Origin: Thermobrachium celere DSM 8682
GTDB lineage: Bacteria; Bacillota; Clostridia; Clostridiales; Caloramatoraceae
Reading direction: 5' to 3'
Assembly: GCF_000430995.1 (NCBI RefSeq)
Contig: NZ_HF952018.1
Location: forward strand, 873,776 to 937,775
Length of the DNA stretch: 64,000 bases
Of the stretch, positions 1,681 through 45,343 are shown in pieces; position 1 is the stretch's first letter; every line of letters starts with the position of its first letter. Under the pieces are notes generated by a model. It saw only the letters and a program-made list of their open reading frames with translations. It made no database searches and had not been told where the DNA came from. The translations under genes were made by a program, and so were the position numbers.

Positions 1681-2577
1681 TGAAAACATCTCCTTTTTTT
1701 ATAATTAATTTATTATTTTTTATTTTAATAGGTATGTTAAAAGGAATAATTTTGTTAATATAATCATGTCCACTTTCTAAGCCTTTATATATAGGTTTAT
1801 CTGTCAATTCTTTTAAATAATTAAAGATGTAATCTAAATTAAAACTCTTACTAATATCTTCAGGATCACATTTAGTAAAACTACCTAAAATTATTCCTTT
1901 TATTTTTTTTAGTATATTTGAATGGTAAAGTTGATTAAATAACCTATCAATTTTATATGGCTCTTCATTTATTTCTTCAATAAATAATATTTTATCGTCA
2001 AAATCATATAAGTATTTACTTCCTATTAATGAGCATAGAACAGTTAAGTTGCCTCCGACAATAATTCCGTCAATATCCCCACCTTTAATTGGTATAAGTT
2101 CATATTCTAGAACTTCAAATTTCCCTTCTAAAAAGTCAAACATTATTTTATAGTTATCAGGACTTTTGTATAAATCATAATTAAACATAGGACCATGAAA
2201 TGTTGGAAATTTTAAATATGAAAAAGCAGAATGAAGTGATGTTATATCGCTATAACCTACAAAAATTTTTTTATTTTTTCAATAATGTCATATGGAATTT
2301 TATCAAGCAATCTTATGGTACCATAGCCACCTCTAATACAAAATATAGCTTTTACTTCATTATCAACAAAAGCTTCATATAAGTCTTGAAGTCTTTTGCT
2401 ATCATCTCCTGCTAAGTAACCATGCTTACAATCTATGTATTTGCCTAATTTTACAACATATCCAAAACTATTTATTTTTTCTATTGATTTATCAATTAAA
2501 GAATTTTCAAATACAGCTCCAGCAGGGGCTATTAAAGCTATTTTATCACCTTTATTAAGTTTATTTATTAAATTCAT
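1673..2577 (-). pseudogene. ldcA: LD-carboxypeptidase (S66, LdcA type), broken by a -1 frameshift
   Basis: LdcA trims the terminal D-Ala from murein tetrapeptides during cell-wall recycling. Two reading frames together make one S66 protein. The first (2257-2577, from ATG after GGGGGAG) carries the N-terminus and ends at TAG just after KIKKFL. The second frame continues without a gap as FVGYSDITSL, then FHGPM, the GGNL loop, EEINEEPYKIDR and SGHDY near the end. Those three last regions and the Ser of GYSD correspond to the family's catalytic Ser/Glu/His. Adding one base in the A/T run at 2261-2272 restores KKIFVGYSD and a protein of about 301 residues. As written, the first fragment lacks the nucleophile. 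A real mutation, a homopolymer sequencing error, or slippage on the A-rich run would all look the same. Confidence 0.8.
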
Positions 2578-24905: not shown

Positions 24906-25044
24906 CATAATTTACGTTAATTTAAAAAGAAAAAAACATAAATTTATCAATTTAAAATAATATAAAATAAAATTAAAAAACATATTAAATTCTACAAACT
25001 AATTTTATAATATTTTTTTTCATTTGAAAAGTAAAAATTACAAC

Positions 25045-25081
25045 AAAAATAGGTCCTATTTTACAATAGGACCTATTTTTT
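25045..25081 (-). terminator. Terminator after fliS
   Basis: A 13-bp stem AATAGGTCCTATT (25048-25060 with 25065-25077), 4-base loop, T-runs on both sides. It separates the flaG-fliS unit from the flgB operon promoter. Confidence 0.85.
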
Positions 25082-25090
25082 TACAATATT

Positions 25091-25471
25091 TTATTTCTTT
25101 ATTCTTTTATATGCTTCTTCAAAAGTCTCCTTTAATTCTTCTGCAAATCCAAGTATTTCTTCTGCTATTTTTGCATCTTTTTTTATATTTGCTTCAACTA
25201 ATCTTCTGTACATATAATCATAGAGTGCCATTAGGCTTTTTGCTATTTCTCCTCCAACTTCCATATTAAGTGTAGACATGAATTCTAAAATAATGTTCTG
25301 TGCCTTTATTAAGTTTGTATGTGCTTTTTGTAAATCTTTCTCCTCTAATGATGTAATTGCTTGTCTTATAAATTTTACTAAACCATCATAAAGCATTAAT
25401 AATAGTTTTTCTTTTGATGCTGTATTTACACTGTTTTGTTGGTATATATTTAAAGCTGATGAGCTATACAA
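25091..25471 (-). CDS. fliS: Flagellin export chaperone FliS
   Basis: 126 residues, helical bundle: NIYQQNSVNTASKEKLLLMLYDGLVKFIRQA, then LMALYDYMYRRLVEANIKKD. FliS keeps flagellin unfolded for export. The start is TTG at 25469-25471 preceded by GGGGGT; no ATG fits. Its client flagellin is not encoded in this window. Confidence 0.95.
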   Translation of the reverse strand: MYSSSALNIYQQNSVNTASKEKLLLMLYDGLVKFIRQAITSLEEKDLQKAHTNLIKAQNIILEFMSTLNMEVGGEIAKSLMALYDYMYRRLVEANIKKDAKIAEEILGFAEELKETFEEAYKRIKK

Positions 25472-32190: not shown

Positions 32191-32236
32191 GAGTAAAAAG
32201 TCTGCAGAATTATTTTTCCTGCAGACTTTTTACTCT
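32183..32236 (-). terminator. Terminator of the chemotaxis operon, overlapping the sigma-D -35
   Basis: An 18-bp perfect stem (32190-32207 with 32219-32236, AGAGTAAAAAGTCTGCAG and its complement) over an 11-base loop that contains the fliY stop codon. It is followed on the minus strand by AAAGTTTTTTC, whose bases form part of the next promoter's -35 box. Confidence 0.88.
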
Positions 32237-33334
32237 TTCATCACTACTTATTATACTTGTTATTCTTACTCCAAAATTTTCATCTATTACAACAACTTCA
32301 CCTAATGCTACTTTTTTTCCGTTTACTAATATCTCAACTGGTTCCTCAGTTAATTTATCTAGTTCAACTAGAGAACCTACTGATAGCTCTAAAATTTCTT
32401 TAATTGTTTTTTTAGTTCTTCCTAATACAACTGAAATTTCTAGTGGTACGTCTAAAATTAAATCAATATTTTTCATTTCATTACTTGCTATAGGAGTTAA
32501 TGGAGCAAACTCAGCTTTTTGTACATTATATATCTGATTATTTGTTTGTATATTTGTTTGCATAGTATTAAAATAATTAACTTCAGGTTCTATATTATTT
32601 AATGATACTTCATCAGCATTGAAGATGTCAATGCTATCATTTGTTACTTTTGAATATTGTTGAGTTTGTGTTTCTTCTATGCCAGTTAGTTTATTTATAA
32701 TCATTTTTGCTGTTGGCAATGGTAAAAGGAGCATTATTTCACTATCAACTAGAGCATCAATAGTTAATCTGAATGCTATTTTTACAATTTCTTCATTTTC
32801 AGAAATTTTTTCTGAAAGCTTATTATTTTTTTCGTCCCAAACTGATGCATATGGAGGTGAAATGTTTATTGGCATATTTAACATTTGTGAAAGGGACGTA
32901 GCAGCTGAACCTATCATCTGGTTCATAGCTTCAGAAACAGCACTAATTTCAATATCTGATAGTGAATCAGCCTTTCTTGTACCATCGCCACCCATCATTA
33001 AGTCAGCAATAACAATTGCATCAGTAATTTTAATAAGCAATAAATTTGCACCAATTAATCCTTCTATATATTCTACTTCAACTGAAATTATTGGAACATC
33101 AAATTCTTTTTTCATTTCACTTAGAGTTGTTAGGCTAACTTTTGGTGTTGTTATATTTACCATTCTATTAATTATTGTAGATAAAGCAGTTGAGGCCGAC
33201 CCCATTGAAATATTTCCAACTTCGCCTAGTAAATCCTTATCAGTTTCTGATAAGGAAGGCTGAACAAAAGCACCATTTAATAAAGCATCTATTTCTTCTT
33301 GTGAAAGTAAACCATCATTCATCATCTTCCACAT
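32210..33334 (-). CDS. fliY: Flagellar motor switch phosphatase FliY (FliN fusion)
   Basis: About 374 residues in three parts. An N-terminal FliM-like CheY-P binding peptide reads LLSQEEIDALLNG. A CheC-type phosphatase domain follows, with two E-x2-N-like sites (TDKDLLGEVGNISMGSASTAL and ISAVSEAMNQMIGSAATSL). After a linker comes a C-terminal FliN/SpoA domain (LDVPLEISVVLGRTKKTIKEILELSVGSLVELDK). It is both C-ring part and CheY-P phosphatase. The exact start is uncertain: ATG codons at 33334, 33325 and 33322 are all possible and lie inside fliM. Confidence 0.93.
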   Translation of the reverse strand: MWKMMNDGLLSQEEIDALLNGAFVQPSLSETDKDLLGEVGNISMGSASTALSTIINRMVNITTPKVSLTTLSEMKKEFDVPIISVEVEYIEGLIGANLLLIKITDAIVIADLMMGGDGTRKADSLSDIEISAVSEAMNQMIGSAATSLSQMLNMPINISPPYASVWDEKNNKLSEKISENEEIVKIAFRLTIDALVDSEIMLLLPLPTAKMIINKLTGIEETQTQQYSKVTNDSIDIFNADEVSLNNIEPEVNYFNTMQTNIQTNNQIYNVQKAEFAPLTPIASNEMKNIDLILDVPLEISVVLGRTKKTIKEILELSVGSLVELDKLTEEPVEILVNGKKVALGEVVVIDENFGVRITSIISSDERVKSLQEK

Positions 33335-34317: not shown

Positions 34318-34707
34318 TTACTTTAATAGATTTTCACCATCTATTAGTGTAACTATATATTCTTTAAAATTGATAACTCCTTTAATTAGATTATTATCAT
34401 TATTTATCTTTTCTATAATTTCATCTTCAACATCAACAACCTCTTGAACACTGTCAACCATAAGTCCAATTTTTTCATCTTTAACTTCTACAATAATAAT
34501 ATTTTCACATTGATTATTGGATATTATATTTAAATATTTTTTTAAATCAATTACAGAAATTATATTTCCTCTAAGATTTGCAAGTCCACTAACGTAATAT
34601 GGTGCTGTTGGCACTTTTGTTATATTCATCATTTTTTCAATGCCATGAACTATTCTTGTTTCAAGGGCATATTTTTCTTTCCCTATGTTAAATATAACAA
34701 CTTGCAT
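34318..34707 (-). CDS. cheW: Chemotaxis coupling protein CheW (second copy)
   Basis: About 129 residues, one CheW domain: VVIFNIGKEKYALETRIVHGIEKM, PYYVSGLANLRGNIISVIDLK and KIGLMVDSVQEVVDV. It links receptors to CheA. ATG at 34705-34707 has AGGAG nine bases upstream; a TTG at 34716 abuts it. A second cheW lies at 40024, and the two differ clearly, so they may serve different receptors. Confidence 0.9.
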   Translation of the reverse strand: MQVVIFNIGKEKYALETRIVHGIEKMMNITKVPTAPYYVSGLANLRGNIISVIDLKKYLNIISNNQCENIIIVEVKDEKIGLMVDSVQEVVDVEDEIIEKINNDNNLIKGVINFKEYIVTLIDGENLLK

Positions 34708-34719
34708 TATAATCAACTC

Positions 34720-35079
34720 CTATCCGAGCACCTTCTTTAATGCTTCTAAAACTCTTTCTGGTTGTAAAGGTTTTACAATAAAATCTCTTGCACCAGATTT
34801 TATTGCTTCCATAACCATAGCTTGTTGCCCCATTGCTGAACACATTATGATTTTTGCATTAGGATCGAATGCCTTTATTTCTTTAACTGCTTGAATACCA
34901 TCCATTTCTGGCATTGTAATATCCATTGTTACAACATCAGGTCTTTCAGCTTTGTATATTTCTACTGCCTTTGCACCATTTGGAGCTTCACCTATAACTT
35001 CATAACCATTCTTTGTTAAAATATCCTTTAACATCATTCTCATAAAAGCAGCATCATCAACTATTAACACTCTTGCCAT
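34720..35079 (-). CDS. cheY: Chemotaxis response regulator CheY
   Basis: 119 residues, a lone receiver domain. Acidic pocket DD at residues 8-9, phospho-acceptor Asp in VVTMDITMPEMDG (about 53), then the conserved Thr/Ser in MCSA and Lys in FIVKPL. CheY-P binds FliM and FliY. It lies between cheC and cheW. Confidence 0.95.
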   Translation of the reverse strand: MARVLIVDDAAFMRMMLKDILTKNGYEVIGEAPNGAKAVEIYKAERPDVVTMDITMPEMDGIQAVKEIKAFDPNAKIIMCSAMGQQAMVMEAIKSGARDFIVKPLQPERVLEALKKVLG

Positions 35080-35095
35080 TTTTATTCCTCCCTTA

Positions 35096-35691
35096 CTAAC
35101 ATAAACCTAGTTTTTTCAAAATAAAATTGAATGTACCTGGTTTTGGTATAAAAAAGAAGTTACCTGCTATTTCATTATTATCTATTATAAATTTTGTATC
35201 AATAGCTAAAATTAGATCACTATACTGTTCTGCGTCAATGAAAGTGGTTGTCATAACTGCTGCCAACATATCATATGCTACTGATGGAACAGAAGTAAAG
35301 ATAGATTAGTTATTTGTGATACAGCATTTAAATAAGAATTACCTAATATATTACCAATTTCTTGGAACATTGAATAAAACATTTCTTCATTAATATTAGA
35401 AAAACCAAACATTAAAGTATCAAAAAACTTTTGAGCTTCTTCATTTTTTACTAAAAACAAAATATTGCCTTGTATATCACCAAAAACTTTTAGTAGAACA
35501 GCAACAACTTCATCATCTTCATTTCCAACTCTTTTAATCATATCGCTAAATTCTAATATGTCAAGTTGAGGAACTGACATATCAACTTTTTTATTTATTA
35601 ATTGTGATAATGCTGTTGCTGCATTACCTGCACCTATATTTCCAATCTCCTTCAAAGCATCTATTTGTAGTTCATTTAGATTTAGCTCCAT
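35096..35691 (-). pseudogene. cheC: CheY-P phosphatase CheC, broken by an apparent one-base loss
   Basis: The first frame (35278-35691) has both CheC active-site helices, LKEIGNIGAGNAATALSQL and FQEIGNILGNSYLNAVSQI, but stops at TAG soon after NLSLLL. In the next frame the family sequence continues at once, SVPSVAYDMLAAV, then TTTFIDAEQYSDLILAIDTKF and a C-terminal FFFIPKPGTFNFILKKLGLC, to a stop at 35096. One extra base near 35291-35296 would give NLSLLSVPS and a normal CheC of 198 residues. Mutation, sequencing error and -1 slippage are all possible. CheD, the CheC partner, is encoded at 39525. FliY supplies a second CheY-P phosphatase. Confidence 0.82.
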
Positions 35692-35704
35692 ATCCTCACC
35701 TACT

Positions 35705-37696
35705 TTATACTATAGCCGCTACATCAAGAATTAGGGTTACTAATCCATCACCTAAAATTGTAGCCCCAACATATTCTTTTAGATTTTGAAGAAGTTTACC
35801 AATAGGTTTAATTACAATTTCTTGTTGACCTAAAAGTTCATCTACTAAAAGTCCTACAGTTTTTTCTCCAGCTTTAACAATTACAATATATTTATTTTCT
35901 GAATAAGTTTCTTCTAAATTTAATTTTTGTGAAAGTCTTATAATTGGTATAATCTTGTCTCTATATAATATTACTTCTTTGTTATTAGTTAATTTAATTT
36001 CATTAACATTAATATTTATTACTCTATCAATAAAACCTAAAGATATTGCAAAAGTTTCTCCAGATACTTTTACTAATAGAGCTTGTATTATAGATAGAGT
36101 TAAAGGAAGTCGTATAATAAATGATGTACCTTTTCCTTTTTCACTTATTACTTCTACTGTACCACCTAAGTTGGCAATTTTAGTCTTGACAACATCCATT
36201 CCAACGCCACGGCCAGAAATATCAGTTATTTTATCACTGGTGCTAAATCCTTGCATGAAAATTAAGTTTTTAATGTCGCTTTCTGACATACCTTCTGTAT
36301 TAATACCTATACTTTCAGCTTTTCTTTTTATTTTTTCAATGTCAAGACCTCTACCATCATCTTCAATTCTTATAACAGCTTTATTTCCTTCTTGATAAGC
36401 AATCAATTTAATTGTTCCTTTTGATGGCTTACCGAGTTTTATTCTTTCCTCTGTTGGTTCTATTCCATGATCAGCTGCATTTCTTATTAAGTGCACTAAT
36501 GGTTCTCCTATTTCATCTATTACTGTTCTATCAAGTTCTGTATCTTCACCCTGAATTATTAATTCAATATCTTTACCAAGTTCTTGTGATAAATCACGTA
36601 TCATTCTTGGGAAACGATTAAATACTCTTTCAATAGGAAGCATTCTTACTTTCATTACTAAGTCCTGTAGATCAGATGTTATTCTTCCCACTTGTTCTAG
36701 TGTTTCATGTAAGTCTGTTAATTTGTAATTCATACTTAATTGTTCTAATCTAGTTCTATGAATTACTAATTCACCAACTAAATTCATAAATTTATCTAGT
36801 CTTTCAAGATCAACACGAACAGATTGATGAGCTTTTTTATTTTTATCTTTATCTTCTTCTTTTTTGTTAATTGGCGTAATTTCAGTATCTTTTTTAGTTT
36901 TATTATCTTGAACTTCTTTATTTATTTGTATTTTCTCATCTTTTTCTTTAACATTGATTTTTAGGTCAGATCCCTTTGGAATATCAATATTTACTTCTTT
37001 TATCTCTGAAACATTTAAAATTAACTTTTTAATTTCTTCCTCATTTTTTTGTGTTAAAAACATAATATAAAATCTATCATTAAAGTTTTCTTGTTCTAGT
37101 TCTTCAACTGATGGAACAGTCTTTAAAATTTCTCCAATATCTTCTATTGTCTTATAAACTAAAAACGCTCTTGCAGATTTTAAAAGACAATCATCAGCTA
37201 AAATAACTTCAGCTATATAAACATTATAGTTTTTCTCTTTTGCTTGTTTTATTATATTTTCATCGTAGATATTTAAAGAAAAATCAATTGAATTATCTGA
37301 TTTAGTATTTTTAGTTTGCTCATTATTTATATTTTCTAATAAATCCATAATTTCCTTAATATCTACTGTATTGTTATTATCTTCTCTTATGTTATTTATC
37401 ATTAATTCTAATGTATCTAAACATTTAAATAAAACAGTTATTATATTTGAATCAACCTTTAAAATATCATTTCTAAATTTATCAAGAACATTTTCCATTT
37501 TATGAGTAAGATCTGCTATGTCATTAAATCCCATGCTTCCTGCCATACCCTTTAATGTATGAGCTACTCTAAATATTGAATTTATTATTTCTTTATTATC
37601 AGGATCCTTTTCTAATTCTAAAATATTTTCATTAAGTGTTTGTAAATTCTCAGTTGATTCTTCTAAAAATATATCGAGATATTGGGACATATCCAT
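35705..37696 (-). CDS. cheA: Chemotaxis histidine kinase CheA
   Basis: About 663 residues. An Hpt domain has the phospho-His in AHTLKGMAGSMG (about residue 46). P2-like and linker regions follow, then dimerisation helices (LVGELVIHRTRLEQLS). The ATPase has N box HLIRNAADHGIEP and G boxes DDGRGLD and GRGVGMDVVK. A CheW-like end follows (QALLVKVSGETFAISL). It phosphorylates CheY and CheB. ATG at 37694-37696 lies eight bases after GGGAGG and overlaps the end of cheR; upstream in-frame codons belong to the cheR overlap. Confidence 0.95.
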   Translation of the reverse strand: MDMSQYLDIFLEESTENLQTLNENILELEKDPDNKEIINSIFRVAHTLKGMAGSMGFNDIADLTHKMENVLDKFRNDILKVDSNIITVLFKCLDTLELMINNIREDNNNTVDIKEIMDLLENINNEQTKNTKSDNSIDFSLNIYDENIIKQAKEKNYNVYIAEVILADDCLLKSARAFLVYKTIEDIGEILKTVPSVEELEQENFNDRFYIMFLTQKNEEEIKKLILNVSEIKEVNIDIPKGSDLKINVKEKDEKIQINKEVQDNKTKKDTEITPINKKEEDKDKNKKAHQSVRVDLERLDKFMNLVGELVIHRTRLEQLSMNYKLTDLHETLEQVGRITSDLQDLVMKVRMLPIERVFNRFPRMIRDLSQELGKDIELIIQGEDTELDRTVIDEIGEPLVHLIRNAADHGIEPTEERIKLGKPSKGTIKLIAYQEGNKAVIRIEDDGRGLDIEKIKRKAESIGINTEGMSESDIKNLIFMQGFSTSDKITDISGRGVGMDVVKTKIANLGGTVEVISEKGKGTSFIIRLPLTLSIIQALLVKVSGETFAISLGFIDRVININVNEIKLTNNKEVILYRDKIIPIIRLSQKLNLEETYSENKYIVIVKAGEKTVGLLVDELLGQQEIVIKPIGKLLQNLKEYVGATILGDGLVTLILDVAAIV

Positions 37697-37697
37697 A

Positions 37698-38474
37698 TCA
37701 ATTACCTCCCGGTTTTCTATATATAAAAGTTGAAGCTTTTTCAAATCCTAATTCGCGATAATTATATATGCTTTCAGTAGCTCCAACAAATAGCAAACCA
37801 CCTGGTTTTAGTGATGTATAAAATTTTCTATATATTTCATTTTTCGTCTCTTGAGTAAAGTATATTACAACGTTCCTACAAACTATTAAATCAAACCCTG
37901 TTTCATAGCTATCCATAATTAAGTCATGTTTTTTAAATATAACACGTTTTTTAATCTCATCAATTATTTGATACTTGTCTTGAACTTGTATAAAGTATTT
38001 CTTTAATAGATCATCATCAACGTTTTTAACTTCATTTTTATTATAAATACCTTGTTTTGCTTGCTCTAGCACGGTTTGATCTATATCAGTGGCCAATATA
38101 TTATGTTTTTTATTTGGTGTAATTTTATCTAATATAATAGCAAGAGTATATGGTTCAGCGCCTATAGAGCAAGCTGCACTCCATATTTTTAGAGTGTTTT
38201 TTTCAGGATTTAAATGTTCTTTTATTTTTCTTTCAAGATCTAGGAATAAATCTTTATTTCTAAAAAATTCTGAGACATTGATTGTTAAATGGTCCAAAAA
38301 CTTTTTGCTTATATTTTTATCCATAGATAGAATATTAATAAACTCTATTTCGTTTTTGGCACCTACACGTTGCATGAAATTTTCAATTCTCCTAATTAAT
38401 TGTTTAGATTTATAGGCAGATAAATTTATTCCATATTCTTTAGCAACAAACTTTTCAATTTTATCAAAATCCAT
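37698..38474 (-). CDS. cheR: Chemotaxis protein methyltransferase CheR
   Basis: 258 residues. A helical N-domain is followed by an S-adenosylmethionine domain with WSAACSIGAEPYTLAIIL, ILATDID and LIVCRNVVIYF. It methylates receptor Glu residues and opposes CheB, the preceding gene. Confidence 0.95.
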   Translation of the reverse strand: MDFDKIEKFVAKEYGINLSAYKSKQLIRRIENFMQRVGAKNEIEFINILSMDKNISKKFLDHLTINVSEFFRNKDLFLDLERKIKEHLNPEKNTLKIWSAACSIGAEPYTLAIILDKITPNKKHNILATDIDQTVLEQAKQGIYNKNEVKNVDDDLLKKYFIQVQDKYQIIDEIKKRVIFKKHDLIMDSYETGFDLIVCRNVVIYFTQETKNEIYRKFYTSLKPGGLLFVGATESIYNYRELGFEKASTFIYRKPGGN

Positions 38475-39524: not shown

Positions 39525-40007
39525 TTACATCTCCTTTATACCTACCCCTGTTATTTTTAATGTAACAATTCCTGTATTAGAGTCTACTATCATTGTTCTT
39601 CCTTTGTTACCTCCGATATCTTCAGCTGTGATAGGTATATTTAACTCTTTTAATACCTTTCTTACTGCTTCAGCATTTCTAGCCCCAACATCCATAAAGT
39701 TGCTTTTATCAGCGAATGAGAACATACTAGCACCGCCAGCTATTTTTGCTCTTATGTTTAATTTCGATGCACCTAGATCTAATAATTTTTGCAATAAAAT
39801 TGGAATTGCTGTATCTGCATATTTTAAAGGATTGCTAACATTTGAAAAACTCTTACTATCTGGAAGCATAATGTGGGAAAGACCAGCAATTTTATTTTTT
39901 GTATCTAATAAAGCAATACCTATACATGAACCCAAGCCAAGTGTAATTAGTTTATTTGGTGCTTTAGTTACGTTTAAATCTCCAATACCAACCTTTATTT
40001 CTTGCAT
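39525..40007 (-). CDS. cheD: Chemoreceptor deamidase CheD
   Basis: 160 residues with the catalytic Cys in LGLGSCIGIALLD, the His in LSHIMLPDS, and GNKGRTMIVDSNTG near the end. CheD deamidates receptor Gln residues and is regulated by CheC. In this window cheC is interrupted, so CheD may act without that partner. Confidence 0.94.
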   Translation of the reverse strand: MQEIKVGIGDLNVTKAPNKLITLGLGSCIGIALLDTKNKIAGLSHIMLPDSKSFSNVSNPLKYADTAIPILLQKLLDLGASKLNIRAKIAGGASMFSFADKSNFMDVGARNAEAVRKVLKELNIPITAEDIGGNKGRTMIVDSNTGIVTLKITGVGIKEM

Positions 40008-43780: not shown

Positions 43781-43787
43781 TATGTAA

Positions 43788-44160
43788 TTGAGTAAGCCTG
43801 TAAGCCGAGTTCTGTCGTGGATGGTCATCTATCTAGGCCTACTGTTGCCAGTAGGCTCAAGCGACACTACCCGAGGGCACGCCGGGCCAGCGCATAAGCC
43901 CTCCTATTTGGTCTTGCTCCAGGTGGGGTTTACAGAGCCACACTGTCGCCAGTGTGCTGGTGAGCTCTTACCTCACCTTTCCACCCTTACCACGCAACAA
44001 TTGTTGCACTCATCAATCATCAGATTGATTGTGGCGGTATATCTCTGTTGCACTTTCCTTAGGGTCGCCCCCACTGGGTGTTACCCAGCACCCTGCCCTA
44101 TGGAGCTCGGACTTTCCTCTCCCATGATTACTCATGGCAGCGACCATCTAGCTTACTCAA
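43788..44160 (-). ncRNA. rnpB: RNase P RNA (type A)
   Basis: 373 nt catalytic RNA that matures tRNA 5' ends. The 5' TTGAGTAAGC pairs with the 3' GCTTACTCAA as helix P1. Universally conserved blocks are present on the minus strand: GAGGAAAGTCCGAGC near the 5' end, GAGCAAGACCAAATAG in the middle, and ACAGAACTCGGCTTACAGG near the 3' end. Layout is that of bacterial type A. Any plus-strand reading frame here is an artefact. Confidence 0.97.
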
Positions 44161-44186
44161 TATTCAATTCTTCACCACACGAAAAG

Positions 44187-44215
44187 ATTATATCATCTAA
44201 AATATATATTGTAAA
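44187..44215 (-). promoter_or_regulatory. Sigma-A promoter of rnpB
   Basis: TTTACA (44210-44215), 17-bp spacer, TATAAT (44187-44192): 11 of 12 consensus bases. It begins 27 bp upstream of the P1 helix and lies downstream of the Nif3-family gene. Confidence 0.8.
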
Positions 44216-44242
44216 TAAGAATATATTTACTTTTAAGATATT

Positions 44243-45343
44243 TTATATGAAATTATATGGTTGTTTAGTATAGATAGTATGAATATCTAATGAATTAAAA
44301 GAATTATTCAATAACGTTTTTATATGTTCAATAAAAACTTGTTCCAAGCCAAAATGAGTTGCATCCAATACTACGATATCATCTTCTAATGCTTCTATTG
44401 CTACATGATGTTTAACATCACCAGTAATTATTAAATCACAACCTTTATTTTTAGCAATATGGATTAGATCGCCTCCGGCTCCCCCTACTATTGCAACTTT
44501 TCTTATCTGCCTTTCAGTATCTCCAATTATAGCAACAAAATTTAGATTTAGTTTTTCTTTTAATTCGTTAGCAACATCTTTAGCTTTTACTGTTTTTTCT
44601 AAAATACCTATTCTCCCTATTCCTTTATAAATTTTATTTTCTAACTTAATAATGTCATAAGCAGGTTCTTCATATGGATGGGTTTTTAATAAAGCATTAA
44701 TAACTTGTTTAAGATCTTTTTCTCTTACAATAGTTTCAATTCTTATTTCATCTACACTCTCCATAATATTCTTGTTGCCAATAAAAGGATTAGATCCTTC
44801 TAGAGGTCTAAAGGTACCTTTTCCTCTTAAATTAAATGAACACATGTCATAATTTCCAATATGGCCTGCACCAGCTCTAAAAAGAGCACTGCTTACTTCC
44901 TCAGCATAATCAACTGGAACATATACAATCAATTTATATAAGCTTTCAATTTTATTTTGAAGCAATACAGAAATTTCCTTTAAGTTAAGCTTTGTAGCCA
45001 ATATATCATTCATTCCATTATCATTTATATCATAATTAGTATGTAATGCATATACATTTATATCATTTTTTATCAAATCATATATCATTGACGTAATATA
45101 ATTTTTCTTATCTATCTTTTTTATTGATTTAAATATAATTGGGTGATGACTTATTATTAAATCAATATTGTTATCTATAGCATATTTTACTGTATCTGTT
45201 GTTATATCAAGAGTTATTAAAATTTTATTTACTATTTTATCTTCATAGCCAATTAATAAACCGACATTATCATAATCTTCAGCTAAGCTTAATGGATATA
45301 AATTTTCTAAATATGTTGTAATCTCTTTTACTTTAATAGACAT
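44243..45343 (-). CDS. Nif3-like dinuclear metal center protein (YqfO)
   Basis: 366 residues; Nif3/GTP cyclohydrolase-I-type-2 fold in two halves with a central YqfO insert (about 125-225). Metal ligands visible: ISHHPIIF (about 65), ALHTNYD and DATHFGLE near the end. The Bacillus homologue is yqfO. Reaction unsettled. It overlaps trmK by 16 bp, as in many Firmicutes. Confidence 0.92.
   Translation of the reverse strand: MSIKVKEITTYLENLYPLSLAEDYDNVGLLIGYEDKIVNKILITLDITTDTVKYAIDNNIDLIISHHPIIFKSIKKIDKKNYITSMIYDLIKNDINVYALHTNYDINDNGMNDILATKLNLKEISVLLQNKIESLYKLIVYVPVDYAEEVSSALFRAGAGHIGNYDMCSFNLRGKGTFRPLEGSNPFIGNKNIMESVDEIRIETIVREKDLKQVINALLKTHPYEEPAYDIIKLENKIYKGIGRIGILEKTVKAKDVANELKEKLNLNFVAIIGDTERQIRKVAIVGGAGGDLIHIAKNKGCDLIITGDVKHHVAIEALEDDIVVLDATHFGLEQVFIEHIKTLLNNSFNSLDIHTIYTKQPYNFI

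Follow-up and report, generated by a model that had tools for sequence, protein, structure and literature searches.

The closest described systems are the chemotaxis proteins of Thermotoga maritima, for which CheC structures are available alone (1xkr) and in complex with CheD (2f9z), and of Bacillus subtilis. According to a study of B. subtilis (PMC3513319), the main CheY-P phosphatase of that organism is FliY, with CheC showing 6% of the activity of FliY, and the main role of CheC is to bind CheD rather than to dephosphorylate CheY-P. Asp149 of CheC sits at the CheD interface, and the D149K protein binds CheD weakly and is near-null on swarm plates while its phosphatase activity is normal. 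In capillary assays, D149K cells are less tactic than the wild type but more so than a cheC null (PMC3513319), so that abolishing CheD binding by itself does not necessarily amount to a complete null. In the portion of a second paper that was available (PMC10438812), cheC appears once, in the title of a reference, and the frameshift treated there is in flhB.

The cheC gene considered here, from a Caloramator-like bacterium, lies between cheA and cheY in a chemotaxis and flagellar cluster on the minus strand of a 64,000-nt stretch of DNA (the window), which is itself part of a 1.98-Mb contig, C32, in a genome of 2.64 Mb and 55 contigs. A preliminary description had reported that the gene is interrupted and that its active-site helices are in the first frame, and both points hold: the frame that opens at 35691 closes at 35278 while the remaining family sequence lies in a different frame that extends to 35096 (Table 1), and the motif EIGN, of the form E-x-x-N that we take to mark the CheC active site, occurs at residues 15–18 and again at 111–114 of the first frame. 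Residues 1–131 of this product are homologous to CheC, Ser131 being the last of them, and residues 132–137 are out of frame. The product matches the Pfam profile PF04509 with 71.7 bits against a cut-off of 22, and the CheC profile NF041093 over positions 2–133 of 201 with 122.7 bits, below a cut-off of 250 that is also missed by an intact CheC (locus L034, 166.4 bits). With 137 aa in frame it falls short of the full-length alpha/beta CheC fold of approximately 200 residues: the break costs the protein about a third of its length (about 68 of 199 residues), rather than the C-terminal half as originally described. The true start of cheA may be internal to the listed ORF. Elsewhere in the window, a bacterial class A RNase P RNA is found at 43785–44159 on the minus strand (RF00010, 326.7 bits), and the 161-aa ORF opposite it (43788–44273, plus strand) is probably spurious.

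Table 1. Position of the interrupted cheC gene and of the chemotaxis genes discussed in the text (window coordinates)
Feature	Position	Strand	Description
cheC, first frame	35278–35691	−	137 aa; ATG at 35691, TAG at 35278–35280
cheC, remainder in other frame	35096–35305	−	open after the stop at 35306–35308; contains the conserved Asp-Met and the last strands
frame-break site	about 35299–35306	−	four bases fewer than in relatives; a perfect tandem tetranucleotide pair is left
cheY	34720–35079	−	full-length; downstream of cheC
cheA	35705–37744	−	full-length; upstream of cheC; TTG start as listed
fliY	32210–33334	−	full-length; two CheC motifs and a FliN-type C-terminal domain
cheD	39525–40007	−	full-length; GGASMF stretch

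By our reading of the table of matches, a CheC-type match is present in 55 of 60 genomes, the window's own included. The gene is uninterrupted in 53 of the 55, in open frames that are all at least 198 aa long, leaving the window's genome and G004 as the two exceptions. Four of the other five genomes have no match, and in the fifth, G002, cheC runs off the end of the contig short of the break site, so the missing match is a contig edge and is not counted as a loss. The nearest uninterrupted cheC that we found is that of Caloramator proteoclasticus DSM 10124 (L034), which encodes 198 aa in a single frame. We also note that G004 (locus L071, G004:C1:2276001–2292000) is a single-contig genome of the same genus with a completeness of 74, whose apparent gene losses are not trustworthy.

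The extent of the break also follows from the relatives. Between the codon of the second catalytic Glu and that of a conserved Asp-Met pair, the window has 89 nt and all 49 related loci have 93 nt (at least nine of these loci duplicate an already counted contig), and when the gene is aligned with 10 relatives in MAFFT, one gap, of 4 nt, opens in the window's cheC. An alignment with 20 relatives shows no gaps among the relatives themselves in the break stretch. The net loss at cheC is therefore four bases, and both the spacing and the alignment rule out the single-base deletion first proposed, and with it the extra T that had been expected to give an intact sequence. A change of one base does reopen the frame, and the 198 residues predicted from it match the length of the relative only because the C terminus of the window's CheC is one residue longer than that of C. 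proteoclasticus; the protein would still be one residue short where these relatives show no length variation. The break itself lies at about 35299–35306, a few bases away from the 35291–35296 first given. The absence of a long homopolymer had been noted correctly: among the 41 nt examined around the break, no more than 3 in a row are identical, and on this sequence context we dismiss a homopolymer error at cheC.

The tandem tetranucleotide pair at the break suggests slippage without proving it. Within the window, 3.8% of junctions fall inside a pair of this kind or at its edge, so the cheC site is only mildly unusual in this respect. There are two copies only, no repeat tract is visible by eye in 10 relatives, all of them other species, and we found no evidence of phase variation at cheC.

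A broken frame might still yield full-length CheC if a programmed −1 frameshift or slippage recoded the message. Two in-frame heptamers of the slippery type do occur in the first frame, starting at 35449 and 35332, and one of them is 20–26 nt upstream of the break. However, the −1 frame runs into stops after both heptamers, the last at 35306–35308, before the homologous part opens, and the stretch where a shift would be usable has no slippery heptamer and no long A or T run. Since, in addition, a single frame encodes CheC in 53 genomes, we reject recoding and give it next to no chance of being correct. Re-initiation at the internal ATG at 35269, which lacks an evident ribosome-binding site within the 30 nt ahead of it, would yield a piece of 57 aa, for which there is no Pfam match at E 0.001.

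The strain's cheC could instead be intact, four bases having been dropped from the consensus by an assembly or sequencing error. To this question we can bring a survey of frame breaks, in which 652 kb of C. proteoclasticus-type stretches from G003, a genome of the same genus, with 649 ORFs of at least 100 aa (antisense ORFs kept), served as reference for 1.02 Mb of contig C32. Orthologue-like matches of at least 50% identity were obtained for 298 of the 649 ORFs, and because the second piece of a broken gene was accepted only with an E of 1e-10 and an identity of 45% or better, the survey overlooks breaks close to the ends of genes. Three of the 298 are broken, and cheC is the only one with a net change of −4 and the only one outside a homopolymer. 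The other two are both net −1: ldcA, annotated as muramoyltetrapeptide carboxypeptidase, at an A7 run followed by T5 (window about 2266–2275, minus strand, with pieces 2577–2266 and 2275–1676), and a gene with KGCPHDCIFCNQ, presumably radical-SAM-like, at an A8 run outside the window (C32:794324, locus L060). A fourth two-frame case in the first pass was a paralogue match, in which two pieces about 400 bases apart aligned to one and the same part of the query. In the opposite direction, with 220 matched ORFs of the window's genome, no gene of the G003 contig C98 proved to be broken. That paralogue pair accounts for one of the three two-frame cases seen there; the others are an ORF of 60 aa facing ldcA and one of 81 aa at window 25024–25269, which faces a frame on the other strand that we take to be FlaG-like.

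Against the same reference, the window has 2 breaks for 47 ORFs, compared with 17 for 22 ORFs in 16 kb of G004, 0 for 13 in G001 (12 kb) and 0 for 8 in G002 (4.9 kb). Because of this density of breaks, the broken cheC of G004, which is interrupted elsewhere and at an A-run, is best taken as an assembly error, and a parallel loss of cheC in the genus is unsupported. An error-rich assembly thus exists within the genus, and the two homopolymer breaks, which may be errors themselves, indicate that C32 is not error-free either; all three of its breaks moreover fall inside the part matched by C98. On the other hand, the window's assembly is far cleaner than that of G004, and a four-base loss outside a homopolymer is unlike the usual error of this assembly.

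The part of cheC after the break remains under constraint. Compared with C. proteoclasticus, the numbers of identical, synonymous and nonsynonymous codons are 37/15/14 after the break and 60/40/33 before it (two out-of-frame codons included), corresponding to pN of 0.123 and 0.128 and dN of 0.13 and 0.14, respectively. The ratio dN/dS is about 0.21 after the break versus about 0.09 before, which reflects a reduced dS over that short segment, and we read this rise as noise rather than decay. No further stop occurs as far as 35096. Such constraint points either to a recent break or to an artefact and does not separate the two; together with the full-length state of CheD, the partner of CheC, it is also what would be seen if the gene were intact in the strain. 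A DNA search of the genome finds one full copy of the locus and otherwise a 35-nt match at 86%, and profile searches with PF04509 match only cheC and fliY, with no second CheC, so no alternative copy has been assembled. Plasmid records gave no megablast match for window 34700–36200. Taking the evidence together, we consider an error rather unlikely, and the deletion to be quite probably real, present in the DNA and not only in the assembly.

To see what such a deletion would do to the protein, we turn to AlphaFold models, built from the sequences of the window and of related loci only. The intact C. proteoclasticus CheC is modelled with eight strands and six helices at a mean pLDDT of 85.2, and superposes on Thermotoga CheC (2f9z_A) with a TM score of 0.88. 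The model of the truncated protein is without three of the eight strands (138–143, 161–171 and 174–184) and two of the six helices (144–155 and 188–197, the C-terminal helix among them), it builds strand 132–134 from out-of-frame residues, and two N-terminal strands are unassigned. Its mean pLDDT is 75.8, and no residue reaches pLDDT 90, a level attained by 48 residues of the intact relative. The Asp-Met pair, invariant in 20 of 20 relatives, is modelled at the junction of strand 138–143 and helix 144–155, inside the lost part. Its Asp would correspond to Asp149 of B. subtilis, judging from the Thermotoga alignment and from the B. subtilis numbering that we assume for Asp149. The putative CheD-contact segment, with this conserved Asp, then lies outside the 137-aa product, which is in line with the earlier expectation that CheD control should be affected.

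The same models bear on the idea of a separation-of-function allele, in which the 137-aa protein folds, hydrolyses CheY-P and escapes the control of CheD. The two E-x-x-N motifs and the two catalytic helices do survive, and the truncated model superposes on Thermotoga CheC with a TM score of 0.80 by query length. Nevertheless, with the last three strands gone, a fourth replaced, two N-terminal strands unassigned and no residue reaching pLDDT 90, and with all 53 uninterrupted frames reaching at least 198 aa, we find such an allele very improbable. The more elaborate proposal of a natural, CheD-independent short phosphatase, arising by an easily reversible tetranucleotide slip and rewiring adaptation, seems to us extremely improbable.

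Loss of CheC need not abolish the removal of CheY-P. FliY has two E-x-x-N motifs, EVGN at 38 and EAMN at 135, and is possibly a back-up CheY-P phosphatase. The suggestion that FliY could compensate is in this sense reasonable for the phosphatase, but FliY would not be expected to take over the main role of CheC, which in B. subtilis is CheD binding. A genome search for CheX (PF13690) gave only two matches, both below the cut-off and inside or beside cheC itself.

We therefore favour, as the probable reading, a recent and genuine four-base deletion that makes cheC a null allele and removes its control of CheD while FliY continues to remove CheY-P. The four bases would probably have been lost by slipped-strand mispairing at the short tandem tetranucleotide, and translation would then leave the frame after residue 131 and stop after residue 137. 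The resulting protein would retain both catalytic helices but lack the last three strands, the putative CheD-contact segment and the C-terminal helix, so that it would most likely misfold and would not be expected to bind CheD. CheD, no longer restrained by CheC, would cause faulty adaptation without loss of motility. The reach of this result is mostly annotation, in that one chemotaxis gene in one bacterium is probably inactive. Anyone wishing to study adaptation by CheC and CheD in this strain should nevertheless check it first. If the deletion is confirmed, the strain would be naturally cheC-minus, with FliY as the sole protein of the CheC/CheX type found in the genome.

Most likely, the gene is an ordinary disrupted gene and not a new kind of system. 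It shares with C. proteoclasticus the order cheR-cheA-cheC-cheY-cheW-fliM, with 75% identity upstream of the break and 77% downstream, but the C. proteoclasticus gene is one open frame and that of the window is not. The window's CheD has the GGASMF stretch in common with the Thermotoga CheD of the CheC–CheD complex. With Thermotoga CheC, the window product has in common the family, the fold up to the break and both catalytic motifs, whereas the last third, with the putative CheD contact, is out of frame. The predicted loss of CheD binding likens the window's allele to CheC-D149K of B. subtilis, but the latter is a full-length and active protein, while the window's gene is missing a third of its product.
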